From Planctomycetaceae bacterium (GTDB taxonomy: Bacteria; Planctomycetota; Phycisphaerae; Phycisphaerales; SM1A02): a DNA stretch of 29,415 nt. The position numbers were made by a program, and so were the translations under genes. Below the pieces are notes generated by a model. That model searched no databases and was not told the origin of the DNA. It worked only from the letters and a program-made list of their open reading frames with translations. The stretch spans positions 1-29,415 of the forward strand of contig CANJIC010000001.1 of the NCBI GenBank assembly GCA_947474205.1, given 5' to 3'. Every line of letters begins with the position of its first letter. Position 1 is the stretch's first letter. This document shows, one piece after another, positions 2,113 to 20,557 of the stretch.

Positions 2113-3108
2113 TCATTGCCCAATCGATTGCAATCCGCCATCGTGCTCCAAGCGTTCGATGGAAATATGCGCGTTTGGAAATTTTTTCGCGAAGTCCTTC
2201 AGTTGCTCCACGCTCATCACGCACGCAATTGTTGCAATGGCGTCTGCGGTGGTTGCGTCGTTGGCGATCACCATTGATTGGCGCGGCGACTCAATTGGCC
2301 AACCATTCTTTGGATCAAGAATGTGCGACAGCGTTTTTCCATTGATGTGTCCAGGTTGCCCGCGGTCACCACTGACGCACAGCGCCTGATTGCGTAGATA
2401 AATAATGCGTGGCTGTTCACTTTTAAATTCGGGATCAACCTGCACAACCCAACCAGTCGTTTGTGGCGGCGCATCGCCAGCCAAAATATCGCCGCTGATA
2501 TCAATCAGCGCGCAAGTCATATCGCGCGTGCGCAACACTTGCATGGCCGCGTCCGCCGCCAAGCCTTGGCCAATGGCGCCAAAGTCAAATTGAATGTCGG
2601 CAATATCAAATGTCACCGTGTGGGTTGGCTCATTCCAATGCATGTGCGCGCATCCAGAATGGTTCAGCGCGTCCGCAATCACCGCGTCGCTAGGCATGCT
2701 TGATTCACGAAACGCCGCGCGCCATATTTTGGTCAATCGCCCAAGCGCGCAATCAAAAGCGCCAGATGAAGAATGATTGAATTCAACGGATTTTGCTATG
2801 GCTTTGGATAAACGCGCTTGCACTGTGGCGGGTTGATTAGCCAACGTGGGAAGTTTGGAAACTTCCGAGTCGGCCATGTAATCACTTAACGCCATGTCCC
2901 ACGCCGCAATTTCATCAAACGCCGCGCGCGCCGCGGAAGCGGCGTTAGCTTCGTACTGCGCATACAAGGTGATCTTGACCTTGGCGCCCATGTGAATTTC
3001 TTCAAAGTGAAATCGCGTTGGCGCTATTGCTTGTGTTGGTGGCTCGCATCCAAGACAAATGCTCACACAGACGGTGAACATGAATGTGCGCAATGTCTCA
3101 TTCATCAT
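2113..3108 (-). CDS. apbE: FAD:protein FMN transferase (ApbE), probable lipoprotein
   Basis: ApbE moves FMN from FAD onto a Thr/Ser of exported flavoproteins such as NqrB/C and RnfG. Family landmarks are clear: DFGAIGQGLAAD (family FGAIGKGYAVD), ISGDILAG, LCVSGDRG, SHILDPKNGWPI and the Mg-binding ATTADAIAT near the C terminus. I start at the ATG pair at 3108/3105, because the next upstream option is a TTG at 3168 that would place about 20 extra residues before the leader. From 3108 the N terminus is a short hydrophobic segment ending ICLGC. This is an imperfect lipobox, with Cys rather than an aliphatic residue at -3, followed by a mature sequence. The gene follows the chemosensory operon by 76 bp on the same strand and could be read through from it. 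No Rnf/Nqr or FMN-binding target gene is in the window. Confidence 0.88.
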   Translation of the reverse strand: MMNETLRTFMFTVCVSICLGCEPPTQAIAPTRFHFEEIHMGAKVKITLYAQYEANAASAARAAFDEIAAWDMALSDYMADSEVSKLPTLANQPATVQARLSKAIAKSVEFNHSSSGAFDCALGRLTKIWRAAFRESSMPSDAVIADALNHSGCAHMHWNEPTHTVTFDIADIQFDFGAIGQGLAADAAMQVLRTRDMTCALIDISGDILAGDAPPQTTGWVVQVDPEFKSEQPRIIYLRNQALCVSGDRGQPGHINGKTLSHILDPKNGWPIESPRQSMVIANDATTADAIATIACVMSVEQLKDFAKKFPNAHISIERLEHDGGLQSIGQ

Positions 3109-3184
3109 TTTGCTTAGACGCAAGATTGAATCACGCAGCGAAATTAAAATAACGCAATCACCTTGCAATCAATGCAAGCAAGAC

Positions 3185-4375
3185 TCACGGCTTGTATGTC
3201 ACCTCAAGCAAACTCACATCGTCCACAAAGTGCGGACCGCCTTGAGCCGCCTGTCCCCACGTCACCATTTGCTCAAGCGCATCGGGCTTGGTGTGTAATT
3301 TGCCAACCTGCGCAATGTAATCCTCAAGTGAAGTCATGCTTAAGTCCGGCTTGGTGATTTCAAATATTCCATCGCTGTACACAAACAATTTGGAGTTCGG
3401 CTGCAATGTCAACTGACTCGAGTCATATGGAATCCCAGTGGCCGCGCCAATCATCAAGCCTTGAGAGGCAAGTTGCGTAATCGAACCATCTGGTCCCACC
3501 AAAACAGCGGGGGGATGGCCGCCGCCGCACCATTTGATGGTGCCCGCATCCACATCAAGAATGCCGTACCACAGCGTGAAGAACATGTCATTGTGCTCCG
3601 CCATTGGATACAGATCATTCAAGCCCTCCAACACCGCGGCGGGATCGCGCATGTCGCGTCCAGGAATTCCGCCGCCTTTAATAGTGTTCATTGCGCTCAC
3701 GCCAAGCAACGCGGGACCAACTCCGTGTCCGCACACATCAAGCAAATAAATCGCCAAGCGCGACTCATCAAGCCAGTGGTAGCCGAACGCGTCGCCACCC
3801 AAACTTTCGCTGGGAACAAATTTCCATTTTGTTGTTGCCGTGCCTTTGGTCAGTGGCGCGGGCAACAGCGAGCGCACATATTCCGCCGCGCGCTTGGCTT
3901 CCTCTTGTAAATGTTTTTCGCTGGCGGCAAGCGCGGCGTAGGCGGCGTTGCGCTCCATGGCGGCCTTGTATCCATCCGAATGATGCTTAATGCGAGCGAT
4001 CAACTCAACCGGATCTGGCAACTTCACAAGGTAATCATTGGCGCCCAATTCAAACGCCTTGGCTTTGGTCAGCGCTTCTTCGCGCGAGGAAAGAACCACC
4101 AACGGGGTCTCCGTCAGCGCGGCGTGTTTGCGATATTCAGTCACCAATGTCAAGCCATCGATATTCGGCATGACCAAATCTTGCAGTATCACTGTTGGTT
4201 TTAAAGTCAACGCCATCTCCACGGCCTTGGTTCCATCGCTGCAATAATGAAACTCCCATGTCGGCTGGGATTGCAGCATTTTGTGCACCGCGCCAGCGAT
4301 AATGGCTTGATCATCAACCAACAGAACAATGGTTTTGAAAGCGGCCACAGGGTGGTTGGATGCTGAATTAGACAT
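3185..4375 (-). CDS. Response regulator: WspR-type receiver fused to PP2C/SpoIIE serine phosphatase
   Basis: The protein has 396 residues. Residues 14-130 are a receiver with the acidic pair D21-D22, phosphoacceptor D66 (ILQDLVMP) and K118 (DYLVKLPD). This segment resembles the WspR receiver closely as I remember it, including EFHYC, KPTVILQDLVMP, DGLTLV and GANDYLVKLPD. A helical linker (about 130-175, EKHLQEEAKRAAEY) leads to a PP2C-type phosphatase domain. All metal-binding stations are present: GGDAFG, LLDVCGHG, VYSDGIFE and DDVSLLEV. Phosphorylation by the hybrid CheA would be expected to control dephosphorylation of a Ser/Thr phosphoprotein, typically a STAS-domain anti-anti-sigma factor. 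No such partner lies in the window. The ATG at 4375 overlaps the cheB stop by 8 nt; an upstream TTG (4423) is less likely. This is the last gene of the operon. Confidence 0.92.
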   Translation of the reverse strand: MSNSASNHPVAAFKTIVLLVDDQAIIAGAVHKMLQSQPTWEFHYCSDGTKAVEMALTLKPTVILQDLVMPNIDGLTLVTEYRKHAALTETPLVVLSSREEALTKAKAFELGANDYLVKLPDPVELIARIKHHSDGYKAAMERNAAYAALAASEKHLQEEAKRAAEYVRSLLPAPLTKGTATTKWKFVPSESLGGDAFGYHWLDESRLAIYLLDVCGHGVGPALLGVSAMNTIKGGGIPGRDMRDPAAVLEGLNDLYPMAEHNDMFFTLWYGILDVDAGTIKWCGGGHPPAVLVGPDGSITQLASQGLMIGAATGIPYDSSQLTLQPNSKLFVYSDGIFEITKPDLSMTSLEDYIAQVGKLHTKPDALEQMVTWGQAAQGGPHFVDDVSLLEVTYKP

Positions 4376-5405
4376 GGTTCGGTTTAGGCTTTCTTGTAAG
4401 AGCGACTTGAATGGCTGGACCAATAAGTTCTATGGCAAGCACTTGCTCCGCGGCAAGGCATTGCACCGCTGCGCCAGGCATTCCCCAGACAATACTGGTT
4501 GCGGCGTCTTGCGCAATGGTTGCCCAGCCAGATTTTCGCAGCGCCAACAATCCCGCGGCGCCGTCCCTTCCCATGCCGGTCAGCAACGCGGCCACGCCAC
4601 ATAATTTTGTGCCAGCCGCGCCAAGCATGAGCGAGTCCACGCTTGGTTTGTGAAGCGCCTCCATGGGAATATCTGTTTCAATGAACACGCCAGCGGATGT
4701 GATTTGCAAATGTCTATCCGATGAAGCCACGGACACGCTTCCGGCAACCGCGCGATCGCCTGGCAACGCCGCGCGCACCGCAAAGCCCGTCTCATGGCTT
4801 AACCAATTTCTAAATCCTGGCACAAACGCGGTGTCCAAATGTTGAACAATGACCACGGCAAAATTGATAGGTTGCTTGAAGGATCGAAGAACGGTGGCCA
4901 AGGCTTGCGGCCCACCCGTGCTTGCGCCCAAAATAACAATGGGCGTGGAGCAAGACTGATCGCTGACATGCGCTTTGTGAATGACATTGCTGGCAACGGG
5001 CTTCACAATAATGCGTTGATTGCGTCGAATTTGCTCTATTTTGGCTCGTAAACGATCCCCGCCCGCGCCATCAAGCGATTGCTCAAAGCGCGGCGTTTCA
5101 ACCGCGTCAAGCGCGCCGGCGCCAAGGGCCTCAAACACGCGGCTGGCATTTCCCTCAATGGTGGCGGTGACCACAAGAATTGGACAGGGGGTCTTGCGCA
5201 TAATTTGGCGCGTGGCCTCCACGCCATCCATCTTGGGCATGATCAAGTCCATTAAAATTAAATCCGGTTTATTGGCGGCGCATTTAGCCACGGCCTCTTC
5301 ACCATCCAAAGCGGTCCACGCCAAGGTGACATTGGGCATGCCTTGCACAATATGTGTCAGCGCATGCAACGCGATTTTTAAATCATTCACAATCCCAATG
5401 TTCAC
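4368..5405 (-). CDS. cheB: Chemoreceptor-type methylesterase/deamidase CheB (WspF-like)
   Basis: CheB removes methyl groups from glutamates of chemoreceptors and resets receptor sensitivity. The 345-residue protein has an N-terminal receiver with phosphoacceptor D53 (LILMDLIMP). Its first acidic position reads IVND rather than VVDD, a feature shared with WspF-type CheB. The C-terminal methylesterase domain has the catalytic triad S162 (GASTGG), H189 (VQHL) and D281 (TGMGRDGA). The start is GTG (5405-5403), which overlaps the cheA TGA by four bases and implies translational coupling. No methyl-accepting receptor is encoded nearby, so its substrate must be elsewhere in the genome. Domain call is firm; assignment to the Wsp branch rests on gene order and the IVND signature. 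Confidence 0.93.
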   Translation of the reverse strand: MNIGIVNDLKIALHALTHIVQGMPNVTLAWTALDGEEAVAKCAANKPDLILMDLIMPKMDGVEATRQIMRKTPCPILVVTATIEGNASRVFEALGAGALDAVETPRFEQSLDGAGGDRLRAKIEQIRRNQRIIVKPVASNVIHKAHVSDQSCSTPIVILGASTGGPQALATVLRSFKQPINFAVVIVQHLDTAFVPGFRNWLSHETGFAVRAALPGDRAVAGSVSVASSDRHLQITSAGVFIETDIPMEALHKPSVDSLMLGAAGTKLCGVAALLTGMGRDGAAGLLALRKSGWATIAQDAATSIVWGMPGAAVQCLAAEQVLAIELIGPAIQVALTRKPKPNHV

Positions 5406-7759
5406 GCTTGCGCCTCGCCAATCAAGTCCGTGATGGTTTGAATGAATGATTGATCTTGGAATGAACCCTTGGTGAGATAGGCGTTGGCGCCCGCTTCCAA
5501 TCCAGCGGCGCGATCCTCGGCGCGATCTTTGTAGCTGACAATGGCGACGGGCAACGTCGCGAAGCGCGGTTCGCGACGAAGCGCTTTCACAAACTCAATA
5601 CCGTTCATGCGTGGCATGTCCACATCGGTCACGAGCAAATCAAAACGCCCAGCTTTCAATTGGGTGAAGCCATCAACGCCATCCACCGCGGTCTCCACTT
5701 CATATCCCAAACGCGCCAACATTTGCCGCTCCACTTCGCGCACGGTGATTGAATCATCCACCACCAAAACACGCTTGCGGCCCGATGAATTACGGCGTAA
5801 TGACGCGATATCCAACCCGCGCACGCCACCCTCGGAAAGGCCGCGACGAATACCAATAAGCAGGTCCTCCACATCCATGATCAAGATCGCGTGGCCCTCG
5901 TCGTCAATGGCGGCGGAACTTACAAATGGAGTTTTGCCAAGGCGTGGATCAAGTTTGCGCACCACCAAATCCTGCTCGCCCATGAATTGGTCAACTACCA
6001 AGCCGCACGGATTGTCTATGTCGCCAAGCACCACCACATTCACCACGGCGGAATTAGTCGTGTTGGGGTTGTGTGGCAAGCCAAATAATTCACTCGCGCG
6101 CAACAATCCAATCGATCGCTCATCAAGCTCAAATGTCAATCTTCCTTCCATGCTCTTCAAGGAAGCTGAATCCACCTTCACAATTCGCTCAATGCGCGCC
6201 AACGGAAATGCGTATCCCTCTCCACCGACCATCACTGTCACGGCGCGGATAACGCTAAGCGTGATGGGCAGCGACAAAATAAATTCCGAGCCTTGACCAG
6301 GCTGGGATTCCAAGCGAACTGTTCCACCAATTTCACGCACCGTTTGACTGACCACATCCAAACCAACGCCGCGGCCAGAGACTTCGGTCACTTGCGAAGC
6401 GGTGGAGAAGCCGGGCAAAAATAAGAACTCAAGCAACTCTGTCTTGTTCAAGCCAGCAGCAATATCCGCGGATTGCAAGCGTTTTTCAATCACTTTGCTG
6501 CGCACGCGCTCGGGATCAATGCCGCGCCCATCGTCGCGAATGCGCACTTCAAGCATGCCCGCGTGGTGGCGCGCTTGCAAGCGCAAGTGCGCGGTCTCGC
6601 CTTTGCCAGCGGCCAAGCGGTCCTCTGGACCTTCAACACCGTGATCAATGGCGTTTCGCAACATGTGATTCAACGGAGCCTCCAAACGCGCAAGCACATC
6701 GCGATCAACCGCCACGTGCGTGCCTTCAATATCAAATTGAACTTTCTTGCCAAGCTTCTTGGCAAGATCACGGATCATTCGTGGATGACCCGCGGTCACA
6801 TCGCCAAAGGGCCTCATGCGACTGCCAATGACTTCGTGATACAACTTCGTTCCAACTTCCTCGGTGCGTCTAAATACATTCTCCAAAAATTCCGCATGGT
6901 TTGTCAGGCTTCCTTCAATGCTGGCCAAGCGCGCCAATGAGTTCGAAATCTCCGCGGTGTCGCGTCGTTTCACCGCCGACTCGAACGAGTCGCGCGCGAA
7001 ACGGAGTTGTGATTTCATCTCGCGCAAGCCGCGGCGAATTTGTGGAAATCGTTTTCCCTCAACCATGCTTTCTCCAGCCAGGCGCATCATGCGGTCAAGA
7101 TTTTCAGCGTTCACACGAACCGTTCTTACTTCTGGAGCCGCAGCAGCGGCGACAGATTTAGCAGTATTTCCCGACTTATTCGAGGGTTGAATCGGTTGTT
7201 CCGAAGAACCCGCCACGGACTTGGTGGCGGACAACGCCGCCGTGGGTGGATTGGTGGGGGCAACCAAACTTTCCGCTTTGGGTTGAATAATTTCCGCGGC
7301 GGGTACAAATGGTTCAACAATATCAACAGGCTTGGCAACTTTCACCGACGCCGGCATAGCTTGCGGCGGAGCCGACAATGCGGTGATCAGCGCGTTGATA
7401 TCTACGGCGTTGGTGGATTTCCACGTTGGCAAATCCGCCTCTTGAAGTGTGGCTAATTGTGTCAAGATATCCGTGCCGCCAAGCAACTGTTCAACGCGCT
7501 CTGGCCCACACACTTCAACCTTCTTTTGAATGTTGACTAGGCAATCCTCCATGTGATGCGCCAAATCAACCGCTAAATCCAAACCAATCACGCGCGATGC
7601 TCCTTTGATTGAATGCGCCGCACGCATCAAACTTTCAATGGGATGCACGTCCGAGGGGTTCTGCTCCAAACGCAGCAGGCCATCGTTCAACGACGCCCCA
7701 TGCGCCACAATTTCAGCGCGGAACAATTCAAATAAATCAAATCCGCCAAATGAACTCAT
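5402..7759 (-). CDS. cheA: Hybrid chemosensory histidine kinase CheA-REC (WspE-like)
   Basis: The protein has 785 residues. An N-terminal Hpt domain carries the phosphorylatable H49 in AAHSIKGAS. A Pro/Ala-rich linker (about 125-210) replaces any evident P2 domain. The dimerisation and HATPase region follows, with the N box MLRNAIDHGVE, the G1 box RDDGRGID and the G2 box VSGRGVGLDVV. Then come a CheW-like coupling domain (from about 505) and a C-terminal receiver with VVDDS, phosphoacceptor D712 (VTDVDMP) and LTKGS. Hpt-kinase-CheW-REC without P2 is the WspE architecture; the attached receiver may act as a phosphate sink or relay. The ATG at 7759 overlaps the preceding cheW stop by four bases. 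The expected phosphate targets are its own receiver, CheB and the REC-PP2C protein downstream. Confidence 0.95.
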   Translation of the reverse strand: MSSFGGFDLFELFRAEIVAHGASLNDGLLRLEQNPSDVHPIESLMRAAHSIKGASRVIGLDLAVDLAHHMEDCLVNIQKKVEVCGPERVEQLLGGTDILTQLATLQEADLPTWKSTNAVDINALITALSAPPQAMPASVKVAKPVDIVEPFVPAAEIIQPKAESLVAPTNPPTAALSATKSVAGSSEQPIQPSNKSGNTAKSVAAAAAPEVRTVRVNAENLDRMMRLAGESMVEGKRFPQIRRGLREMKSQLRFARDSFESAVKRRDTAEISNSLARLASIEGSLTNHAEFLENVFRRTEEVGTKLYHEVIGSRMRPFGDVTAGHPRMIRDLAKKLGKKVQFDIEGTHVAVDRDVLARLEAPLNHMLRNAIDHGVEGPEDRLAAGKGETAHLRLQARHHAGMLEVRIRDDGRGIDPERVRSKVIEKRLQSADIAAGLNKTELLEFLFLPGFSTASQVTEVSGRGVGLDVVSQTVREIGGTVRLESQPGQGSEFILSLPITLSVIRAVTVMVGGEGYAFPLARIERIVKVDSASLKSMEGRLTFELDERSIGLLRASELFGLPHNPNTTNSAVVNVVVLGDIDNPCGLVVDQFMGEQDLVVRKLDPRLGKTPFVSSAAIDDEGHAILIMDVEDLLIGIRRGLSEGGVRGLDIASLRRNSSGRKRVLVVDDSITVREVERQMLARLGYEVETAVDGVDGFTQLKAGRFDLLVTDVDMPRMNGIEFVKALRREPRFATLPVAIVSYKDRAEDRAAGLEAGANAYLTKGSFQDQSFIQTITDLIGEAQA

Positions 7760-8337
7760 TGAATGGACCTCTCCATGACGGTTTGAATTGCGATTGGATT
7801 CAACAACACCGCGTCGCCATCATCCATTGGAATGATGCAATTGGTGCAGGAAGAAGCGTTTTTTGGAATAGTGGCGGGGGCGTTTCGAAATTTCGACGGA
7901 TCCACTTTGCGGATGCAATCCACAGCGTCCACCTCGAAGGCCCAAGACGCATCCTCGCTTCCAATCACAATCATGCGCCGCAATTTCGCGTCGGCGTTCT
8001 TATCCATGTCCATGTCAAGCACAACATGCAGCAAGCCCGTCAACAAAATGGCGCCTTCATGGCAACATAGTCCACGAAATGGCGGACGCGTTCTATGCGG
8101 CACCTTGCGCACGGTTGTGCATGGAAAAACATTCAGCACGCTGTTGGCGGGCAAAGCAAACCGTTCTCCGCCAATGCGAAAGAGCAATATGGTGTCCTCC
8201 TCACGCAACGACTGCGCCCGTTCTTGCGCCAAATCGCTGGTGTTCTTGGCCAAGTTCGCCGACTGAATTGGACGCGCCAAAAGTTGCGTTAAACCAATTT
8301 TTTTATCTGCAAGATCTTCTGGCGGCAATTGGGTCAA
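7756..8337 (-). CDS. cheW: CheW coupling protein (WspD-like) with N-terminal extension
   Basis: CheW links receptors to the CheA kinase. The 193-residue protein has an N-terminal extension of about 45 residues and then the CheW fold. It opens with ILLFRIGGERFALPA and continues through the VPHRTRPPFRGLCCHEG segment (family RGxxxxRG) to a C-terminal strand ending NPIAIQTVM. It begins at a TTG (8337-8335) supported by GGAG eight bases upstream, which overlaps the cheR TGA by four bases. It lies directly before cheA, the position of WspD in the Wsp operon. A long N terminus is also usual for WspD-type proteins. Why two CheW paralogues are kept cannot be read from the sequence; in Wsp they have separate roles at the receptor array. 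Confidence 0.87.
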   Translation of the reverse strand: MTQLPPEDLADKKIGLTQLLARPIQSANLAKNTSDLAQERAQSLREEDTILLFRIGGERFALPANSVLNVFPCTTVRKVPHRTRPPFRGLCCHEGAILLTGLLHVVLDMDMDKNADAKLRRMIVIGSEDASWAFEVDAVDCIRKVDPSKFRNAPATIPKNASSCTNCIIPMDDGDAVLLNPIAIQTVMERSIQ

Positions 8338-9557
8338 GGTCGTTTCTCCACAGTTCGAGCGGCTCGTTCACGAAAGCGTTGCGCACTTTTGACATCTCCA
8401 CGCAAGTCAGCAAGGGCGCCTAATGACAACAGTGAGAGTGAGTTTAGAGGATCAAGGTACACGACCTTGGTGAAGCTTCGCTCGGCTTCCGTGAATTTGT
8501 TTTGCGCCATTTGAACGCAACCAAACAACACATGAGCTTCAATTCCAAGCGGTTCAACGGCTAAATGCGCCAGCAATGCTTTCTCGGCCTCCACCAAATT
8601 TCCGCTGTCGGCGGAAATCTGTGCTTTTGTAAGCAAAGTCATTATTGGAGCTGGCGCAGGACTTGGCGTGGCCGCGGTGCGCGCGGACAACGTCTTTGCA
8701 GCAGAAACGCCTGGCTTCATTTTCGGCGCGCTTGGCGTTACCAACGGCATCAACGCGCGCGTAGCCATGTCCAATTTCATTGACTCGCTTGGCTTGTCCG
8801 ATCGTGCAAACACAAATGCATGATCCACTTCGCTTCTGCGCATGTCCGTGTCAGCCAAAATAATTGAGTCCGCGTGTCCAAGAAAAACCAAGCCGTTTGG
8901 CTTGGTGATTTCACACAACAATTTGCCCAGTCGCTTTTTGGTTGCCTCGTTTAAATAAATCGCAACATTTCGGCAGAACACAAAATCAAACGCGCGATCA
9001 GGTTTCCATATGGACAAATCGCCACGCGTCAACTCAATCATGGCCATGCCGCCAGCGTCAAGTTCCAATTGTCCTTGAGTTGTTGGGTGCAACCATGGCG
9101 CGGCCCACGTTGGAATGGGCGTGCGTTGCGCCAACGCGCTGGCCCGACCAGTCTTGGTGACCGCCAAATGATCATCGCTGTAATCAAGCGCAAGAATGTG
9201 TATGTGCTGCGCTGTCAAACCGCATGAAAGCGCCGTGGCGGCAATGGAAAACGGCTCCGATCCGGTGGCGCAACCAAGACTGGCCACTTGAATCACTTGC
9301 GAGCGATCACGTTTAAGAATGTGTTCGCGCAACACTTCAAACGCCGCGACATAACGAAAGAGCCACGTTTCTGGCGGGGCCAAATGCTGGTGCAAATACA
9401 TGGCCTCTTGCGGGTCGCGTTGCAAGCGCGCCACATAGTGCTCAATCGTTTTGTCACCAAGCAAACGCATTCGTTCCTGCGCGAACAACTCCACAAATTT
9501 ATTCACTTCAGGTTCAAGCGGCGTGTTCGCGGCCAACCACGCTGACAATTGCCTCAC
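8334..9557 (-). CDS. cheR: Chemoreceptor methyltransferase CheR with C-terminal TPR (WspC-like)
   Basis: CheR uses S-adenosylmethionine to methylate receptor glutamates. The 407-residue protein has the N-terminal all-alpha subdomain with PETWLFR (family ETxFFR). The SAM-binding loop is ASLGCATGSEPFSIA (about 92-106, family AGCSTGEEPYS), followed by ALDYS around D125 and FCRNVAIYL (about 194-202). A Ser/Ala/Pro-rich linker (about 265-305) leads to two or three TPR helical pairs (about 305-400), the arrangement of WspC. The start is GTG (9557-9555), overlapping the upstream cheW stop by four bases. It is expected to act with CheB, but no receptor is in the window. The two departures from consensus (Trp-Leu in ETWLFR and Ala-Thr in CATGSEP) are mild and leave it plausibly active. 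Confidence 0.93.
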   Translation of the reverse strand: MRQLSAWLAANTPLEPEVNKFVELFAQERMRLLGDKTIEHYVARLQRDPQEAMYLHQHLAPPETWLFRYVAAFEVLREHILKRDRSQVIQVASLGCATGSEPFSIAATALSCGLTAQHIHILALDYSDDHLAVTKTGRASALAQRTPIPTWAAPWLHPTTQGQLELDAGGMAMIELTRGDLSIWKPDRAFDFVFCRNVAIYLNEATKKRLGKLLCEITKPNGLVFLGHADSIILADTDMRRSEVDHAFVFARSDKPSESMKLDMATRALMPLVTPSAPKMKPGVSAAKTLSARTAATPSPAPAPIMTLLTKAQISADSGNLVEAEKALLAHLAVEPLGIEAHVLFGCVQMAQNKFTEAERSFTKVVYLDPLNSLSLLSLGALADLRGDVKSAQRFRERAARTVEKRP

Positions 9558-10051
9558 GACACAAGCCGCCGATGATCGCTGGCGGCCACCGCGCTGGCGC
9601 CTTGCAAAAGAAGTTGATGTTGCATGGCGATACGCGTGGCGTCGAACACTTGAACGCGTCCCTCTGGAATATTCAGAACCTCGCGTAAATGTTCAAAGCC
9701 AGGCAAGCCCGCCGTTGGATTCCACGCGCCGCTTTCGTCAAGATCGCGCAACCCAATCGCTTGCTCCACGCGCAGACCAAATGTCGCGGTGCTGGCGGTT
9801 TGAGAATCGTGTTTCATTGGAACCTCTATCAGCAACGTTCGAGAACCAACTTGCGGTTCAATGCATTCCTGACCGGTGAGAATTCCAGCGTCAAGCAGGG
9901 GGATGAGTGCGCCGTGATAATCAAACAAACCAAGCATCCAATTTGGACCAGCGGGCAAAGGTTGCGCTGAAACCACCGGGCAAACTTCACGAATATGGCC
10001 GACATCAATGGCGAAAAATTTATTCTTTGCGGTCCAGATCAGCGTTCTCAT
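9554..10051 (-). CDS. cheW: CheW coupling protein (WspB-like)
   Basis: The protein has about 165 residues and is a single CheW domain: LIWTAKNKFFAIDVGHIREV at the start, WMLGLFDYHGALIPLLDAG in the middle (family RGxxxPVxDL) and GLRVEQAIGLRDL after it. I place the start at the ATG at 10051, which begins just before the domain. A TTG at 10084 would add 11 residues and give a four-base TTGA overlap with the upstream gene, matching the overlaps seen at the next four junctions, so it cannot be excluded. Neither start has a well-spaced Shine-Dalgarno sequence. The gene sits between the HD-GYP gene and cheR, as wspB sits between wspA and wspC. Confidence 0.83.
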   Translation of the reverse strand: MRTLIWTAKNKFFAIDVGHIREVCPVVSAQPLPAGPNWMLGLFDYHGALIPLLDAGILTGQECIEPQVGSRTLLIEVPMKHDSQTASTATFGLRVEQAIGLRDLDESGAWNPTAGLPGFEHLREVLNIPEGRVQVFDATRIAMQHQLLLQGASAVAASDHRRLVS

Positions 10052-10080
10052 GGACGAAGCATAGCCAAACTTCCAACAGT

Positions 10081-11862
10081 TCAATCTTCCGTGTGCAGTT
10101 CGCTAATGTCCCTGATATCAGATAATTTCGAGAAGAAAATATCCACAATCTCTGGATCAAATTGCTTGCCCGCCTCGCCGCGAATGGTGTCAAGCACGCG
10201 TCGTTCAAGCCACGCCTCTTTGTAACAACGCTTGTGGGACAGGGCGTCAAACACATCCGCAAGAGCCACCACTCTGGCAAACAGCGGAATGTCCTCGCCC
10301 TTCTTACCGCCAAGTTTGCGCTGATGCGTGATGGGATCAATCAGCACATTGCCATCTAGGTCAACATATCCTGGATAGCCGCCACCATCCCAGCGTTCGT
10401 GATGGTTCAACACCACCTCACGCGACGACTCATCAAATTCGGTGGGTTGATCCAGAAAAAAACGGGCGCCAATGAGCACATGCTGTTTCATCTCTTCATA
10501 TTCGTGGGCGTCAAGTTTGGCTGGCTTTTTCAAAATGACATCGGACACGCCAATCTTTCCTACATCATGAAGACGAGTGGCGATGCGCAATCGCTCTCGT
10601 TGACGTTCGAAAGCCGGACCTGTGAGTCCACGTCGATGGGCCCACTCTTCAAATAAAATTCCGGCAATTCCAGTCACGCGCGCGATGTGGAGAGGGGATT
10701 CAATAGGATCGCGCGACTCGGTCATGCACAACATGCGCGTGATAATGCTTTCGGTCAATTGCGTGCGTTCAATAGCCACCGTGGCCATGCTGGCAAAGTG
10801 CGAAAGCAACGATTGATCCGAGTCAGTGAATCGTGGTCTGGCGCGGCCATCACTGTCCTTGGCGTTGATTAATTGCAGAACGCCAACGGTCCGGCCCAAG
10901 CTGGTGCGCAGTGGCAGAGCCAGAACGCTTTGCGTTTTGTATCCAGTGATGCGGTCGAATGATGGGTCAAATTGAAATGCGCCGCCGAGTTCAAGCGCGT
11001 AGGCGTTTGCAATATTCACGCTTTCGCCGCTCACTCCAACCCATCCCGCTATGGAATTCTCACTGACTGGCAGCAAGTAACTGGAAAAGCGGGGCTTTTC
11101 AGTGGTTGAGCCACGTCGTTCAATGGTGTCATTTTGCGCATATGCAAATCGAAGAATTTTATTTTCACGGATGTACACCGTTCCCGCATCGGCACCAATT
11201 AGTGTGCGCGCCTCTCGTAGAATTCGATCCATTAACAAATGAATGTCTTGCACCTTGTTCAATTCCATGCCAATGGCAACCAAACTATCTACGCGGTTGC
11301 GATGCAACTCGCTGTCCACAGCCAACGACTTTTGCAAATGCGTCACACGGCGTTCGCTGTCAGTTAAAGAATGCGCGCGATCGTTGAATCGCTTCTGCAA
11401 TGCCTCGATCTCCATTTCCGCAATACGCCCCCGTGAATGAGCCATCCCTAATTTCGCAAGCGTATTGACGCGCGTGCGAACTTCATCGGGCTCGCTTAGG
11501 CGCGACATAAAGTCCTCCGCGCTGGCCGCGAAAGCCGCGGCGCGAATCAACGGATCAGGCAATGGTGCCATGGCAATGCACGGAATGTCTTTGGTGTCAT
11601 CAAGACTTGCCAGTTGGCGAAGCAAATCAAACGCCTGTGTGCCAGGGCCGGAAAGTTCAATGGCAATCACGGATGGCGCGTCTCGCAGAATGCGTTGCAC
11701 GCATTGATCGTCGCGCCGGATAATTTCCAGTTGCGCAATGTCCGATGTCACCGATGTTCGAAGCAAGTCGGCGGCCCAGGATTCATTCGTCGCCAGAATT
11801 AAAAGCGGCTTATTCAGTGGATCATTCATGGTCGAGCGAATTGGAGTTGGTGATTCGCTCAT
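10081..11862 (-). CDS. Pseudo-receiver/GAF/HD-GYP c-di-GMP phosphodiesterase
   Basis: The protein has 593 residues. Residues 18-135 look like a receiver fold that has lost its phosphorylation chemistry: the acidic pair is replaced (NES), the phosphoacceptor position is E69 (VIAIELSGPG) and the conserved Lys is R121. A coiled segment (about 145-200) leads to a GAF domain (about 200-368). The HD-GYP domain follows (about 375-580), with H392, the HD pair 432-433 in RLHDVGKIG, NHHERWDGGGYPG (GYP at 495-497) and D536 in ALADVFDAL. The metal and GYP residues are intact, so hydrolysis of c-di-GMP is expected. It is the first gene of the chemosensory operon, where Wsp operons encode the WspA receptor. 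The GAF domain could supply the signal input. I see no membrane segment. Its start lacks an obvious Shine-Dalgarno sequence; a second ATG lies at 11829. Confidence 0.92.
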   Translation of the reverse strand: MSESPTPIRSTMNDPLNKPLLILATNESWAADLLRTSVTSDIAQLEIIRRDDQCVQRILRDAPSVIAIELSGPGTQAFDLLRQLASLDDTKDIPCIAMAPLPDPLIRAAAFAASAEDFMSRLSEPDEVRTRVNTLAKLGMAHSRGRIAEMEIEALQKRFNDRAHSLTDSERRVTHLQKSLAVDSELHRNRVDSLVAIGMELNKVQDIHLLMDRILREARTLIGADAGTVYIRENKILRFAYAQNDTIERRGSTTEKPRFSSYLLPVSENSIAGWVGVSGESVNIANAYALELGGAFQFDPSFDRITGYKTQSVLALPLRTSLGRTVGVLQLINAKDSDGRARPRFTDSDQSLLSHFASMATVAIERTQLTESIITRMLCMTESRDPIESPLHIARVTGIAGILFEEWAHRRGLTGPAFERQRERLRIATRLHDVGKIGVSDVILKKPAKLDAHEYEEMKQHVLIGARFFLDQPTEFDESSREVVLNHHERWDGGGYPGYVDLDGNVLIDPITHQRKLGGKKGEDIPLFARVVALADVFDALSHKRCYKEAWLERRVLDTIRGEAGKQFDPEIVDIFFSKLSDIRDISELHTED

Positions 11863-11933: not shown

Positions 11934-12018
11934 TGGGACCGGTGGGAGTTGCACCCACACGTCAATTTCTTGACTGCGGATTTTAAGTCCGCTGCGTCTG
12001 CTGTTCCGCCACGATCCC
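11934..12018 (-). tRNA. tRNA-Leu (anticodon UAA)
   Basis: On the minus strand an 85-nt class II tRNA folds cleanly. The acceptor stem is GGGATCG/CGGTCCC (one T-G wobble) followed by discriminator A. The D stem is GCG/CGC, the anticodon stem GCGGA/TCCGC with loop CTTAAAA (anticodon TAA), and the long variable arm GTCAA-GAAA-TTGAC. The T stem is GTGGG/CCCAC. The long variable arm and discriminator A fit leucine. CCA is not encoded. The D-loop lacks the usual GG and the T-loop reads TGCAACT rather than TTCRANN. The gene lies 92 bp after zwf on the same strand. Confidence 0.92.
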
Positions 12019-15413: not shown

Positions 15414-15445
15414 AATTGCAAATCGTTTGATTGAAGGAGATTCGC

Positions 15446-17254
15446 GTGGCTCGAAAGATTCGATTGAAACTTGGTGAGATCTTTGTGCAATGGAACGTGG
15501 CCAATGCCGACCAAGTCGCCAAAGCCTTGGAACTTGCCAAAGGCACGGGCAAGCGCATTGGCGAGGCTTTCATAGAGATTCAAGCATGCAACGAGGAAGA
15601 TGTTGCCAAGGCATTGGCGCATCAATTTGGCATGGAGTTTCTCAACCTTGATCGCGCCGAAGACAGTAGCAAGATCAACATCTCGCTTATTCCAGAAGAT
15701 ATTATTCGCAAGCACTTGGTGATTCCGCTTTCCAAGGGAAATGGTCGCCTGAAAATTTTAGTGCATGACCCAATGGATCTGGAATTATTTGATGGGCTGC
15801 GCTTTCGTTTGGGCGCGGAATTGGATACCGCTATTGCAAGCAAGCGCCAAATGCAGGCGTTTCTTGATATTGGAAACAAAGCCGCCAAAGCGGTGAAGCA
15901 GGAAACAGGGGCGGCAGTTGACATTGAGAAGTTAATTAACAAGGCCAACAATTCGCTTGACAAGTCGCTTGATAAATCCATAGACAAAGATGCCTCAAGC
16001 GATTCGGCCCTGGTTCAATTGGTCAACGGCATCATCATCAATGGTGTGCGTGGTAGAGCCAGTGATATTCATTTTGAGCCACGCAAAGAAAATGTTCTTG
16101 TTCGATTTCGAGTTGACGGCGAGTGCGTGGTGATAAGCAAACTTCCAAAGAATAATCAGTCCGGTGTGTTGGCGCGTTTAAAGTTAATGGCCGGCGTCAA
16201 CATGTCGGAGCGTCGCATTCCGCAAGACGGTCGTATTAAGATGGCTGTTCCAAGACAGGATGCCGAAGGAAATCAAGTGTTCGAACTTGATGAGAAAACA
16301 AAATTACAGAGTCCCGTGATCGACCAAGTCGACTTTCGTGTTAGCACATGCCCCGCGACCAACGGCGAAAGCGTGGTGCTGCGTATTTTGCGGCCAGATA
16401 GCGTGCGCATTGGTTTGCTTAACTTGGGTCTTGAACAGGACATGTTGGACACGTTCAACAAGGTCATTCGCAAGCCCAACGGTATTTTTCTGGTCACTGG
16501 TCCAACTGGTAGCGGTAAAACAACCACGCTGTATTCAGCGCTGGCGGTGCTCAATCGCCCAGATAAAAAAATCATTACCGCCGAGGATCCCGTTGAATAC
16601 AACTTCAAGGGCATCAATCAGGTCCAGGTGCGCGATCAAATCGGCTTGACATTTCCAGCCATTCTAAAGTCCATGTTGCGCCAAGCGCCCAATATTATTT
16701 TGGTGGGTGAAATTCGAGATCGCGAAGTCGCAGACATCGCCATTCAGGCGGCGCTCACTGGACACTTGGTCTTCAGCACGCTGCACACCAATGACGCGCC
16801 AAGCGCCATCACGCGATTGGTGGACATGGGCGTCAAGCCCTTCTTGGTGGCCAGCAGTATTCAAGCCATCATGAGTCAGCGTCTCGCCAGAATATTGTGC
16901 GACAAATGCAAAAAATTGGATCCCGCGCCTGATCCAAAGATTCTGCGCCTGGTCGAGATCGCGGACTCCGAAAAAGAGAAGGTCATGATGCCAGTGGGTT
17001 GCCCCGAATGTGGTGGCGTTGGATATCGAGGTCGCCGCGGAATCTATGAAATGATGATCATGAACTCAGAGATCCGCAATCTGGCTTTCGAGCGCGCGGG
17101 TATCGCCAAACTTCGTGCCGCCGCAATTCGCTCTGGTATGCGCACGTTGTTGGGCGACGGCAAGTTGAAGATTTTGCGCGGACGCACAACCCCAATTGAA
17201 ATTTCCAAATTTGCCCAGACATCAACCTTCGATCCAGCTTCGGTTGGTGGTTGA
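15446..17254 (+). CDS. pilB: PilB/GspE-family assembly ATPase (first copy)
   Basis: This is a hexameric cytoplasmic ATPase of the type that powers pilus or pseudopilus extension. The start is the GTG at 15446, with AAGGAG six bases upstream; a TTG at 15431 lies before that ribosome binding site. The 602-residue protein has an N-terminal MshEN-like region (about 1-150), then the N2 domain (SDIHFEP, VRFRVDGE). The Walker A motif GPTGSGKTTT is near residue 352, with the Asp box TAEDPVEY, Walker B ILVGEIRD and His box GHLVFSTLHTND. A four-cysteine zinc site follows (CDKC near 486, CPECGG near 519). Two features differ from the second copy: a linker with three S-L/I-D-K units (about 170-182) and an insertion of about 20 residues in N2 after RIPQDGRIKMAVP. 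It is followed by pilT after 38 bp. Confidence 0.92.
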   Translation: MARKIRLKLGEIFVQWNVANADQVAKALELAKGTGKRIGEAFIEIQACNEEDVAKALAHQFGMEFLNLDRAEDSSKINISLIPEDIIRKHLVIPLSKGNGRLKILVHDPMDLELFDGLRFRLGAELDTAIASKRQMQAFLDIGNKAAKAVKQETGAAVDIEKLINKANNSLDKSLDKSIDKDASSDSALVQLVNGIIINGVRGRASDIHFEPRKENVLVRFRVDGECVVISKLPKNNQSGVLARLKLMAGVNMSERRIPQDGRIKMAVPRQDAEGNQVFELDEKTKLQSPVIDQVDFRVSTCPATNGESVVLRILRPDSVRIGLLNLGLEQDMLDTFNKVIRKPNGIFLVTGPTGSGKTTTLYSALAVLNRPDKKIITAEDPVEYNFKGINQVQVRDQIGLTFPAILKSMLRQAPNIILVGEIRDREVADIAIQAALTGHLVFSTLHTNDAPSAITRLVDMGVKPFLVASSIQAIMSQRLARILCDKCKKLDPAPDPKILRLVEIADSEKEKVMMPVGCPECGGVGYRGRRGIYEMMIMNSEIRNLAFERAGIAKLRAAAIRSGMRTLLGDGKLKILRGRTTPIEISKFAQTSTFDPASVGG

Positions 17255-17292
17255 TGCTCCATTCGTAATCAATCCCTAAGGAGAAAACCACA

Positions 17293-18456
17293 ATGTCAGG
17301 CGGAGAAACAAGTAGTTCCAAACCAACAGTGGGCAGCACGGTTCAAATTGACCGTCTGCTTGATGTCATGGTGAAACAAGATGCGTCCGATCTTCACATT
17401 ACGGTTGGTCGCCCTCCCACGGTGCGGTTGAACGGTCGCCTGCGCAATTTGCAAACTAAAATTCTTGACCCCGACGACACTATGGCGTTGATGAAGTCCA
17501 TTACACCGGAAAAAAATCAGGCGGAGTTTCAAGAGGTGGGTGGAACCGACTTTGGCTTTAGCTTCAGCGACGCGGCCCGCTTCCGCGTCAGCGTGTTCCG
17601 CCAAAAATCATTCGTAGCCATGGTGCTTCGACTCATTCCAAACCGCATTCTCACTTTCGAGCAAATCGGTTTGCCCGAAATTTCCCGCGAGTTGATCAAG
17701 CGTCCGCGCGGCCTCTTTCTTGTGACTGGTCCCACTGGCAGCGGCAAAACCACCACCATCGCCACCATGGTCGACTACGTGAATTCAAATTTTGAAAAGC
17801 ACATTGTGACCGTGGAGGACCCGATCGAGTATTACCATGTGCATAAGAAAAGCATCGTTAATCAGCGCGAAGTAGGAGCGTTGGCTGACGTGCCTACATT
17901 CGCCGACGCTTTGCGCCGTGCTCTACGCCAGAACCCGGACGTGATTTTGGTGGGTGAAATGCGCGATCTTGAAACCATCGAGGCCGCCATCAAAGCCGCC
18001 GAAACTGGACACTTGGTGTTCGGAACATTGCACACCACGGGCGCGGCTGGAACCATCAACCGAATTATTGACGCCTTTCCAGTGAATCAACAAGAGCAGG
18101 TTCGTGTCCAGTTGTCCACCAGTTTATTGGCGGTTCTGAGCCAAGTTCTTTTGGCAAGAATCGACAAGCCTGGCCGTATCGCTGGCTATGAGTTCATGGT
18201 GGTCACCCCGGCCATCAGCAATCTCATCCGTGAAAGCAAGACCTTCCGAATTGACTCGGCCATTCAAACTGGAAAGAAATTCGGCATGCAATTGCTTGAC
18301 GAACATCTGTGGTCCATCTTTGGAAAGGGCATCATTTCCGCCGAGGAAATGATTGAAAATTCCCGCAATCCGGATGATCTCAAAGATAGAATCCGCAAGT
18401 CAGGCGGCCAAGTCCCGGGCACGCAATTTGATGGTCCAACCGAGACAATTTCCTAA
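17293..18456 (+). CDS. pilT: Twitching/retraction ATPase PilT
   Basis: PilT drives pilus retraction by disassembling pilin subunits. The 387-residue protein begins at an ATG with AAGGAG nine bases upstream. It has the N-terminal PAS-like domain (QDASDLHITVGRPPTVRLNGRL in two adjoining parts), Walker A GPTGSGKTTT near residue 146, VEDPIEYYH, Walker B ILVGEMRD, the His box GHLVFGTLHT and the PilT-type segment RIIDAFP. It lacks the zinc cysteines of PilB/GspE, as PilT should. The C terminus is extended by about 20 residues of Gly/Pro/Thr-rich sequence. PilT next to GspE/GspF and pseudopilins suggests that the machine can retract, which classical type II secretion systems do not provide for. The next gene starts after a 208-bp gap. 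Confidence 0.96.
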   Translation: MSGGETSSSKPTVGSTVQIDRLLDVMVKQDASDLHITVGRPPTVRLNGRLRNLQTKILDPDDTMALMKSITPEKNQAEFQEVGGTDFGFSFSDAARFRVSVFRQKSFVAMVLRLIPNRILTFEQIGLPEISRELIKRPRGLFLVTGPTGSGKTTTIATMVDYVNSNFEKHIVTVEDPIEYYHVHKKSIVNQREVGALADVPTFADALRRALRQNPDVILVGEMRDLETIEAAIKAAETGHLVFGTLHTTGAAGTINRIIDAFPVNQQEQVRVQLSTSLLAVLSQVLLARIDKPGRIAGYEFMVVTPAISNLIRESKTFRIDSAIQTGKKFGMQLLDEHLWSIFGKGIISAEEMIENSRNPDDLKDRIRKSGGQVPGTQFDGPTETIS

Positions 18457-18664
18457 CCAGTGACCGGTACATTGCAAGTTATTGTCGATTTGCAGACTAC
18501 TTTGATTTCAATTTAAGACCTCTTTTTGACTATGAGCCAAAGTCCGAATTATTGGCGACGTAATTATCAGTTCAATAATTAGGAACTAGACCTTGCACTG
18601 AATCGAATGTAAATGCGAATGCGGACCCAAATTCAGTCTCCGAATTCAGTTAGGATAAATCGCC
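18457..18664 (+). other. 208-bp intergenic region before gspE
   Basis: No gene or stable hairpin is apparent. It is AT-rich and holds a TTGACT at 18526-18531, but no good -10 box at the right distance. An AGGA at 18652-18655 lies nine bases before the gspE ATG. A separate promoter for the gspE-onward genes could lie here, but I cannot point to it. Confidence 0.4.
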
Positions 18665-20437
18665 ATGCCTGAAATACAAAATTTGAATTTTGATCCATCA
18701 AGCGAGCGCTTCGCCTTGGAACTTAAGGGCCGCAGATTTGGTCGAGCCCTGACCAAATTGGGCAAGGTCACCCGCGAGCAAGTGCATCAAGGTCTTGAGT
18801 TGCAAAAGACAACTCATAAAGGAAAAAAGATTGGTGAAATTCTTGTGCTGATGGGTCTGATTGATGCCAACGACATCACCATGACTTTATCAGGAATGGC
18901 TGGCATGCCATTCATCTCGCTCAAAGGTCGTGTCATTGACGACGCAACTTTGAAGTCCATCAATTCCGCGATGGCTAAAAGCGTTCAAGTGATTCCAATT
19001 GAATATGACGCCACAACCAAGAAGTTGGTTGTGGCCATGAAAGATCCCACAAACTTTTCCGCCGTGGACACGCTGCGCAATATGTTGGGCCTGAAAGTTT
19101 CCGCAGTCATAGCACCCGTCGATGAGATCGACGCCATGCTGAAAGAGCACTACCAATCAAAAGATGAATTGAAAGAGATTTACGCAGATCTTGCCCAAAG
19201 CGACGCGGTCGCGGCTCTTGATGGCCGCGGCATGAGTGTGGATCTTGCCACGCTGCAAGACGCTGCCAACGACAACAATGTTGTTCAACTTTTAAATTTG
19301 GTTCTTCTGCAAGCCATTCGCGACAAGGCAAGCGATATTCATTTGGAGCCATTCGAAGACGAATTCAAAATGCGATATCGAATTGACGGCGTGCTGTATG
19401 ACATGGATCCGCCACCGCCTAGTTTGTCAATGGCCATTGTCAGCCGCGTGAAGGTCATGGCCAAACTGGACATCGCTGAACGGCGCTTGCCGCAAGACGG
19501 ACGCATTGAATTGAACTTGAACAACGCGCCAATCGACCTTCGCGTGGCGGTGTTGCCGACCATGTTCGGCGAAAGCGTGGTCATGCGCGTGCTGGATCGA
19601 GGCAACGTGCAGTTGAGTTTGGATAAAGTTGGCTTGCGCGAGGACGACCTTGAAAAAGTCCGCGGTCTCATTAACAGACCAAATGGAATTGTGATTGTCA
19701 CGGGTCCAACCGGCAGCGGTAAAACCACCACGCTCTACGCCGCACTGAACGAACTGAATGACCCCAGCACAAAAATCCTCACCGCCGAGGATCCCGTTGA
19801 ATATGACATTGCCGGATTGATTCAATGTCAGGTGAATCACGATCAGGAACTCACCTTCGCCAAGTTGCTGCGAAGTTTCTTGCGTCAAGATCCCGACATC
19901 ATTCTGGTGGGTGAAATCCGCGATCTTGAAACGGCGCAGATCGCCATTCAAGCCAGCCTCACTGGACACTTGGTGTTCAGCACATTGCACACCAATGACG
20001 CTCCCAGCAGCATTCTGCGTTTGATGGATCTTGGCGTTGAAAGTTTTCTTCTTACCGCGACTCTAGAGGCCATTGTGGCGCAGAGACTTGTGCGCCGTGT
20101 GTGCGCAATTTGCAAGGAAACATACACGCCCACCGAGGAACAATTAATGGAGCTGTCCATGCGCCAATCGGACTCGGTCAATTACACATTCACCCGTGGC
20201 AAAGGATGCGAGAAGTGCAACAAAACAGGTTACAAAGGGCGCCTTGCGCTATATGAAATCATGTCTATGGATGACACGTTGCGCGAACTCATCATGACAC
20301 AAGCAAGCACCGCGGTATTAAAAATGGAGGCCCGCAAGCGCGGCATGCGCACGCTTCGTGAAAGCGGCATGTTGTCTATTTACGACGGACAAACCACCAT
20401 TGACGAAGTTGTTCGTGAAACGCTAGGCGAAGAATAA
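18665..20437 (+). CDS. gspE: GspE/PilB-family assembly ATPase (second copy)
   Basis: The 590-residue protein has an N-terminal MshEN-like domain (about 20-165, RFGRALTKLGKV and KKIGEILVLMGLI), which in related proteins binds c-di-GMP in some cases. The N2 domain follows (SDIHLEPFEDEFKMRYRIDG). Walker A GPTGSGKTTT is near 348, then TAEDPVEY, Walker B ILVGEIRD, GHLVFSTLHTND and the zinc site CAIC (about 479) with CEKC (about 515). The arrangement is that of canonical GspE/PilB without the insertions of the first copy. It directly precedes gspF/pilC, as gspE does in type II secretion operons, so it is the likelier partner of the pseudopilins. Its last codons (GGC GAA GAA TAA) belong to the first unit of a tandem repeat that runs on into the intergenic region. 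Confidence 0.93.
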   Translation: MPEIQNLNFDPSSERFALELKGRRFGRALTKLGKVTREQVHQGLELQKTTHKGKKIGEILVLMGLIDANDITMTLSGMAGMPFISLKGRVIDDATLKSINSAMAKSVQVIPIEYDATTKKLVVAMKDPTNFSAVDTLRNMLGLKVSAVIAPVDEIDAMLKEHYQSKDELKEIYADLAQSDAVAALDGRGMSVDLATLQDAANDNNVVQLLNLVLLQAIRDKASDIHLEPFEDEFKMRYRIDGVLYDMDPPPPSLSMAIVSRVKVMAKLDIAERRLPQDGRIELNLNNAPIDLRVAVLPTMFGESVVMRVLDRGNVQLSLDKVGLREDDLEKVRGLINRPNGIVIVTGPTGSGKTTTLYAALNELNDPSTKILTAEDPVEYDIAGLIQCQVNHDQELTFAKLLRSFLRQDPDIILVGEIRDLETAQIAIQASLTGHLVFSTLHTNDAPSSILRLMDLGVESFLLTATLEAIVAQRLVRRVCAICKETYTPTEEQLMELSMRQSDSVNYTFTRGKGCEKCNKTGYKGRLALYEIMSMDDTLRELIMTQASTAVLKMEARKRGMRTLRESGMLSIYDGQTTIDEVVRETLGEE

Positions 20438-20514
20438 AGGCGAAGAATAAAGACCAAGTATCAGGGCCAAGAATTTAGGCCAAGTATCAGGGCCAAGAAT
20501 TAGGCCAAGAAAAA
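20425..20514 (+). repeat. 13-bp tandem repeat, seven units, across the gspE stop codon
   Basis: Units begin at 20425, 20438, 20451, 20464, 20477, 20490 and 20502. The first two are identical (AGGCGAAGAATAA). The later ones are variants of RGGCCAAGWATYA; the sixth has lost one base. The (C/G)AAG core recurs every 13 bases, with one 12-base step. Unit 1 encodes the last residues and stop of gspE, and the array fills most of the gap to gspF. Confidence 0.9.
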
Positions 20515-20523
20515 GTTGATCTC

Positions 20524-20557
20524 AGGAGCAAGCGTCCGCGCTTGAACACATCACATG
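20524..20557 (+). promoter_or_regulatory. Hairpin-bridged ribosome binding site of gspF/pilC
   Basis: The only Shine-Dalgarno sequence before the start is AGGAG at 20524-20528, 26 bases from the ATG at 20555, which is too far to work directly. Between them CAAGCG (20529-20534), loop TCCG and CGCTTG (20539-20544) form a perfect six-pair hairpin that begins right after the AGGAG. Folding leaves an effective spacing of 10 bases. A stop codon in frame at 20543-20545 rules out an earlier start. Confidence 0.6.

Follow-up and report, generated by a model that had tools for sequence, protein, structure and literature searches.

A planctomycete chemosensory cluster of the Wsp branch with a WspR-type receiver on a PP2C phosphatase

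Gene content of the cluster

The DNA analysed here, referred to as the window, is a 29,415-nt stretch from a Planctomycetaceae bacterium and carries a chemosensory operon of seven genes on the minus strand. According to the open reading frames and their Pfam matches the order is HD-GYP, CheW, CheR-TPR, CheW, CheA-REC, CheB, and a response regulator in which a receiver domain (REC) is joined to a SpoIIE/PP2C phosphatase (Table 1). From HD-GYP through CheB the genes overlap by 4 nt at each of five junctions. The Wsp system (WspA-F, WspR), found in Pseudomonas and Betaproteobacteria, serves as a model of how bacteria sense surfaces and of how biofilm mutants evolve time and again; it is known as a switch for cyclic di-GMP (c-di-GMP). 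The original prediction for this DNA, made without database searches, had listed the seven genes, the wspB-C-D-E-F-R order from the first CheW onward, the matching architectures (two CheW, TPR on CheR, REC on CheA, an IVND-type CheB) and the lack of a WspR cyclase in the operon. All of this was recovered, the TPR match being weak; by Pfam, SpoIIE/PP2C occupies the place of GGDEF. The REC-PP2C gene probably starts at an ATG near 4375 rather than at the TTG at 4423, since 15 aligned homologs start at or close to that Met.

The core enzymes were checked for functional residues, using E. coli position numbers for CheA and CheB. In CheA the Hpt histidine and the ATP-site residues checked are all kept. 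CheB retains the Ser-His-Asp triad, has the acidic pair N-D ('IVND') as in Azoarcus WspF, and reaches 364 bits with NCBIfam NF009206/PRK12555 (cut-off 342). Compared with E. coli CheR and Azoarcus WspC, the CheR protein of the window lacks a stretch; in the alignment its S-adenosylmethionine motif looks kept.

Table 1. Genes of the chemosensory operon and features at its borders (positions in the window).
Feature	Position	Strand	Evidence
Degenerate WspR-like receiver + GAF + HD-GYP, operon head	10081..11862	-	Pfam GAF, HD, HD_5
CheW, wspB position	9554..10084	-	Pfam CheW 7.8e-13
CheR methyltransferase, TPR-like C-terminus, wspC position	8334..9557	-	Pfam CheR 8e-28; TPR_2 E 3.7e-4, below cut-off
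CheW, wspD position	7756..8337	-	Pfam CheW 1e-12
CheA-REC hybrid kinase, wspE position	5402..7759	-	Pfam Hpt, H-kinase_dim, HATPase_c, CheW, Response_reg
CheB methylesterase with REC, wspF position	4368..5405	-	Pfam CheB_methylest 1.2e-44; NCBIfam NF009206/PRK12555
WspR-type receiver + helical stalk + SpoIIE/PP2C phosphatase, wspR position	3185..4423	-	Pfam REC, SpoIIE
ApbE family gene, possible operon tail, 16 nt past the PP2C gene	2113..3168	-	Pfam ApbE 2.2e-55
tRNA-Leu (taa), between G6PD and HD-GYP, upstream operon border	11934..12018	-	ARAGORN

WspR-type receivers on phosphatase and HD-GYP proteins

The receiver and stalk of the REC-PP2C protein have WspR (3bre) as best match in the PDB, with an E value of 2.5e-43, and the receiver is 50-55% identical to six GGDEF WspR-type receivers. 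RssB came third in this sequence search (E 1e-28), its match also spanning the phosphatase half. An AlphaFold2 model (pLDDT 90.5) shows a long helix, residues 138-185, joining the two domains. When this model was submitted to Foldseek, RssB of P. aeruginosa (PDB 3eq2, 3f7a) was found first and E. coli RssB next, followed lower down by WspR, Rv1364c (RsbU-RsbW), SiaA and SpoIIE. RssB therefore shares the REC-PP2C architecture and the fold, but the window receiver is nearer to WspR, and with 105.9 bits against a cut-off of 700 the protein fails the curated RssB family of NCBIfam. The residues D211, D229, D351, D401 and D402, presumably the metal binders of the SpoIIE/PP2C domain, are invariant among 16 sequences. 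The closest homolog with an organism name (84% identity) is from a Planctomycetes bacterium; among the loci compared, which are labelled L001 and so forth, L001, from genome G001, reaches 86% and L002 (Planctomycetota) 62%. Scored with a WspR-receiver model, 93 receivers of the loci then in the set gave at least 200 bits and 156 gave less than 80, with none between. Intact HD-GYP receivers, described below, score 114-207 bits with the model used to search the genomes, so that the WspR-type set is distinct but not sharply bounded.

The HD-GYP protein at the operon head also has WspR as best PDB match for its N-terminus (3i5a, E 4.5e-10), and its counterpart in L032 finds WspR first more clearly (E 3.4e-21; the next match other than WspR has 1.6e-8). 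The WspR model was compared with a generic receiver model on the HD-GYP pseudo-receivers and gave 40.8 versus 18.0 bits for the window, 46.6 versus 20.9 for L001 and 100.5 versus 40.8 for L032; the L002 receiver hardly favours the WspR model (44.0 versus 42.3). The receivers of the window CheA and CheB favour the generic model (49.9 versus 107.0 and 35.3 versus 66.8). All five signature positions of the window HD-GYP receiver are altered: the acidic pair reads T and N, and Asp is replaced by Glu, Thr by Ala and Lys by Arg. The same five positions are altered likewise in L001; L002 and L032 retain the Asp. Because all five signature residues differ, the operon HD-GYP is unlikely to be switched by CheA via its own receiver, and it appears to be a WspR-receiver effector whose receiver has decayed. 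The HD and HHERWDGGGYPG motifs are intact by eye and Pfam matches HD and HD_5, which agrees with the predicted function of the first gene; the protein is probably a c-di-GMP phosphodiesterase.

Eleven relatives chosen for having the PP2C protein, all of them drafts of unstated completeness, were searched further (genomes labelled G001 and so forth). Another HD-GYP protein with an intact WspR-type receiver is encoded in eight of them (G001, G002, G005, G006, G007, G009, G010 and G011). The G009 protein lies inside the operon: at locus L070 of this genome a REC-HD-GYP gene sits between CheB and PP2C. Altogether 19 receivers of the relatives exceed 110 bits, 11 on PP2C, eight on HD-GYP and none on GGDEF; three annotated REC-GGDEF proteins (L167, L169, L171) reach about 60-71 bits. 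The operon begins with an HD-GYP gene in G001, G002, G003, G006 and G011, as it does in the window. The c-di-GMP removal proposed from the sequence finds better support in the HD-GYP protein of the eight relatives, which CheA could address, than in the operon's own HD-GYP, the receiver of which has lost its signature residues.

Class of the sensory core and spread of the receiver

Single-gene trees were calculated for the CheA core (73 rows), CheB (77) and CheR (62), with few references in total, namely E. coli, Listeria (CheA only), a plasmid Chp-like cluster of P. aeruginosa and other che clusters. The GGDEF Wsp rows are plasmid-borne proteobacterial systems; the chromosomal Wsp of Pseudomonas was left out of the trees and compared only through the WspR structures, by sequence and fold. 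One CheA row (Desulfofer_124) was too short and was dropped. In each of the three trees the PP2C and GGDEF Wsp rows fall together, with no reference row among them. Support for the joint branch is 0.86 for CheA (0.76 with L048) and 0.83 for CheR; the CheB tree is weak taken alone (0.39), which limits the evidence from this protein. In a concatenated tree of 69 rows (50 PP2C, 7 GGDEF, 12 others) the PP2C and GGDEF rows occupy one side with an SH-aLRT value of 100. A second concatenated tree of 74 rows included four GGDEF systems of the deltaproteobacterial phylum and left out the P. aeruginosa type IV pilus (Tfp)-like cluster, Sinorhizobium_128, Desulfovibrio_119 and Desulfovibrio_120, so that it holds no Tfp row; it gave the same split, again with SH-aLRT 100. 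The P. aeruginosa Chp-like cluster, the one Tfp-like row of the earlier trees, has a long branch, and its placement is unsure.

As anticipated in the original prediction, CheA, CheB and CheR fall with Wsp/ACF and outside the flagellar and pilus-type references; a flagellar or Tfp class is disfavoured by the trees. Both traits of the ACF class, CheR-TPR (with the TPR below the cut-off) and a multidomain response regulator, are present by Pfam. With Wsp the cluster has in common the order CheW, CheR-TPR, CheW, CheA-REC, CheB, response regulator, the kinship of CheA, CheB and CheR to plasmid-borne proteobacterial Wsp proteins, and the WspR-type receiver with its stalk. It differs from Wsp in having PP2C for GGDEF, no wspA in the operon and an HD-GYP gene at the operon head. 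Since CheA, CheB and CheR group with proteobacterial Wsp and the GGDEF domain is missing, the core is assigned by sequence to the Wsp branch of the ACF class and not to Wsp proper.

The association of CheB with REC-PP2C is conserved, as the original prediction had supposed for relatives. Of 80 loci gathered with the REC-PP2C family as query, 45 have a CheB that ends no more than 250 nt from the start of the receiver. In the remaining loci CheB is farther upstream (5), after PP2C (4), divergent (4), not seen (20) or truncated (2). The 20 loci in which it was not seen mix cut contigs and orphan genes with L046, where che genes lie downstream but none for CheB, and L048, whose CheA is encoded on the opposite strand; the divergent loci L050 and L051 carry a CheA of another class.

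Genomes of two phyla were searched for the WspR-type receiver. In an even draw of 246 genomes from the phylum of G001 it was found in 12 (E up to 1e-40); the outputs at its 13 places are 11 PP2C, one REC-kinase-REC, one HD-GYP and no GGDEF. In the phylum of L030 (Deltaproteobacteria) it was found in 15 of 247 genomes at 16 places, with 10 PP2C, five GGDEF and one output unnamed by profiles; the L177 protein (485 aa) has an output domain without a name. By record titles, loci in which a CheA-CheB cluster of this branch comes with a phosphatase bearing a WspR-type receiver belong to Planctomycetota, Deltaproteobacteria, Lentisphaerae, Elusimicrobia, Ignavibacteriaceae, Acidobacteria and Verrucomicrobia. 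GGDEF versions are present in the deltaproteobacterial phylum and in Alphaproteobacteria, the latter accounting for three of seven GGDEF Wsp loci from plasmid records. At two loci (L004, 7624-9111, and L025, 8338-9798) a WspR-type receiver on a nucleotide cyclase (Pfam Guanylate_cyc) stands between CheB and REC-PP2C. A survey of 2021 described Wsp as exclusive to Beta- and Gammaproteobacteria and as having arisen in Betaproteobacteria (PMC8552884). In view of the planctomycete, deltaproteobacterial, alphaproteobacterial and other occurrences this distribution looks too narrow. Wsp genes in planctomycetes have been reported by annotation (PMC6461901; for wspR PMC9119077).

The original prediction had further supposed that the cyclase output was replaced. 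The data do not show this direction. The GGDEF rows nest within the PP2C rows in the concatenated trees. The tree leans towards an ancestral PP2C, but holding all PP2C rows as one clade cost 4.7 and 7.8 log units, with p values of 0.289 and 0.317 in the approximately unbiased (AU) test, which leaves PP2C monophyly standing; GGDEF monophyly likewise survives the test (AU p 0.532, second tree). In addition, the sampling favours PP2C, because the first 80 loci came from a PP2C query.

Putative circuit and alternatives

No MCP/wspA receptor gene was found in a search of the window. Of the 33 loci with enough sequence, 29 have an MCP gene within 3.2 kb upstream of their che genes, the four without being L001, L002, L006 and L058. 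The idea that the organism has no receptors is rejected in view of receptors elsewhere in the related genomes: G001 encodes four MCPs away from the operon, and receptors are also encoded elsewhere in G002. At the hairpin tip, three of the four G001 receptors agree with the WspA proteins of Cupriavidus and Azoarcus, and L084, the fourth, shows a variant form; the comparison included no receptor of another class. For the MCP of the L032 operon, the closest G001 receptor is the one on contig 113 (42% identity). Two MCP genes directly follow a gene for a periplasmic binding protein (L084, 5223-8608, Peripla_BP_5 by Pfam; L091, 329-3726, partner recognised by eye), and in both cases the two genes possibly encode a ligand-sensing pair.

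In 10 of the 11 relatives the CheW-domain matches total just three, and a search for flagellin gave no match in nine of the 11. The Wsp-type array therefore looks like the sole one. Flagellin was found in G004 and G009; the latter has six flagellin matches, yet its CheW-domain matches are only the three of the Wsp-type cluster, and the Wsp-type array may serve flagella there.

We consider it reasonably likely that the operon encodes a system of the ACF/Wsp branch in which a WspR-type receiver drives PP2C, with a STAS partner switch as target and a parallel lowering of c-di-GMP. Chemoreceptors encoded elsewhere, as inferred from the relatives, would gather on CheW and control CheA, with CheR and CheB setting receptor methylation. 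Active CheA would phosphorylate the receiver of REC-PP2C, and the helical stalk would relay this phosphorylation, turning the phosphatase on. The phosphatase would most likely remove the phosphate from a serine residue in a STAS (anti-sigma-antagonist) protein, thereby flipping a partner switch. In parallel, CheA would probably phosphorylate the WspR-receiver HD-GYP encoded elsewhere, so that c-di-GMP would fall in response to the same signal. With its own receiver dead, the operon's HD-GYP protein would instead be controlled through its GAF domain or through contact with another protein. Such a REC-PP2C/HD-GYP circuit is plausible.

SpoIIE-type phosphatases act on STAS proteins, as do RsbU/Rv1364c and SiaA, and these STAS phosphatases are among the nearest folds of REC-PP2C. 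STAS and RsbW-like genes are present in all 11 relatives. Several observations weigh against the proposed circuit. A profile search of the window for STAS genes was negative, RsbW-like genes not having been sought across its whole length, and near REC-PP2C a STAS gene occurs in only four of the 80 loci, plus one weak match (L051). Furthermore, the receptors and the second HD-GYP are known only from the relatives, which are drafts. A candidate switch was also followed up: genes for a secretin, a STAS protein and an RsbW-like protein stand in the same order and on the same strand in all 11 planctomycete relatives (L093-L103; the secretin is recognised by Pfam in L093 and L102 and by similarity in the others), and may form a partner switch tied to a secretin. 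Its co-occurrence with the receiver was examined in 31 genomes of the 246-genome draw (E 1e-15). Of these, 11 planctomycete genomes other than the relatives carry a WspR-type receiver (10 on PP2C, one on a kinase); the RsbW of the triplet was found in none of them, a further point against the circuit, and in two of the 20 without such a receiver. Because it was not found at this threshold in any of the 11 receiver-bearing genomes, the triplet is rejected as a general target; at most it may be a local one.

The phosphatase could instead act on a target without a STAS domain, for example a phosphosite of the nearby pilus or secretion machinery or of an HD-GYP protein. The scarcity of STAS genes at these loci would fit such a target, and the pilus-type genes of the window (15431-29415) keep the same arrangement relative to the operon region in G001 and G002, the two relatives examined for this. 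However, the shared order also takes in the housekeeping genes G6PD, 6PGD and DFP, so that the collinearity points to no special link with the pilus-type genes, which moreover run divergently and begin 3.6 kb past the head of the operon. With the STAS phosphatases among the nearest folds as well, we regard a target of this kind as rather unlikely. The same nearby pilus-type genes, conserved in two relatives, together with the flagellin matches in two of the 11 (G004 and G009, where the G009 CheW proteins are of Wsp type only), could suggest a flagellar or type IV pilus chemotaxis system with REC-PP2C as an accessory. This is very improbable, given that in the trees CheA, CheB and CheR side with Wsp and not with E. 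coli, Listeria (CheA only) or the P. aeruginosa Chp-like cluster, and that flagellin is unmatched in the other nine relatives.

A further alternative is that the core works mainly via c-di-GMP, with the WspR-receiver HD-GYP as main output and PP2C as a secondary one. RpfG is an HD-GYP protein. The WspR of Lysobacter is reported to act through a complex with RpfG (PMC9758175). The intact HD-GYP receivers of the eight relatives, the REC-HD-GYP between CheB and PP2C at L070 and the HD-GYP genes at the head of the operons named above speak in the same direction. PP2C, on the other hand, is present in all 11 relatives, which were chosen for it, and in the even draw of 246 genomes it occupies 11 of the 13 places as compared with one for HD-GYP. 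A circuit centred on c-di-GMP therefore seems unlikely to us, and the reading with PP2C as the driven output and a STAS partner switch as its target is preferred.

Phosphatase outputs in such clusters are already known. A list of response-regulator outputs in CheR-TPR clusters of the ACF class from 2012 includes 'Ser/Thr phosphatase: family 2C' (PMC3447774). Those clusters resemble the window cluster in CheR-TPR and in the multidomain phosphatase-type response regulator; in contrast to it, no WspR-type receiver or Wsp order is described and planctomycetes are unmentioned in the available part of that paper. The version with the WspR receiver is a real and conserved variant of this known class. 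In Shewanella the che1 locus, of the F7 class, is connected with the CrsR-CrsA partner switch, and stage 1 F7 clusters contain anti-sigma-factor antagonists and a serine phosphatase (PMC9855816, PMC7184735). The F7 systems are likewise chemosensory loci joined to a phosphatase/anti-sigma-antagonist module, but they belong to another class and have the antagonist gene in the locus, where none was found in the window. WspH of Burkholderia carries a WspR-like receiver on a histidine kinase within the Wsp gene order and is limited to Burkholderia in that account (PMC8552884); it shares the transfer of such a receiver to another output and the gene order, the output being a kinase in WspH and a phosphatase in the window. 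In the phylum of G001, locus L193 (8685-10349) encodes a WspR-type receiver-HisKA-HATPase-REC protein after CheB, which by its domains would be a WspH-like output outside Burkholderia. No account of PP2C or HD-GYP outputs with a WspR receiver was found in the literature searched, the coverage of which leaves out most subscription journals.

If phosphotransfer proceeds as proposed, one array could be coupled to any of several outputs (PP2C, HD-GYP, GGDEF, nucleotide cyclase or kinase), and the clusters would offer a testable system for the swapping of output domains. It is conceivable, although we have more doubt than confidence in it, that Wsp is an ancient core of many phyla and not a betaproteobacterial invention, that the WspR receiver is an interchangeable plug which in planctomycetes also sits on HD-GYP, and that the PP2C partner switch is older and c-di-GMP synthesis later. 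On this tentative reading a signal that builds up c-di-GMP in Pseudomonas would destroy it in planctomycetes and flip a phosphoserine switch as well. WspH of Burkholderia is already an exception to Wsp as a c-di-GMP switch (PMC8552884).

The gene order of the window, from an FGE-sulfatase-like gene at the left end through the pilus-type genes at the right end, is common to G001 and G002. An ApbE match directly follows PP2C in L001, L002 and L012 and is found 3.1 kb further on in L032. The pilus-type genes, on the plus strand, are of the type II secretion/type IV pilus kind and encode two MshEN-T2SSE ATPases, a PilT-like ATPase and a T2SSF protein. They are followed by genes for five proteins with an N_methyl motif (21835-28661), which stand in the same order in G001 and G002.

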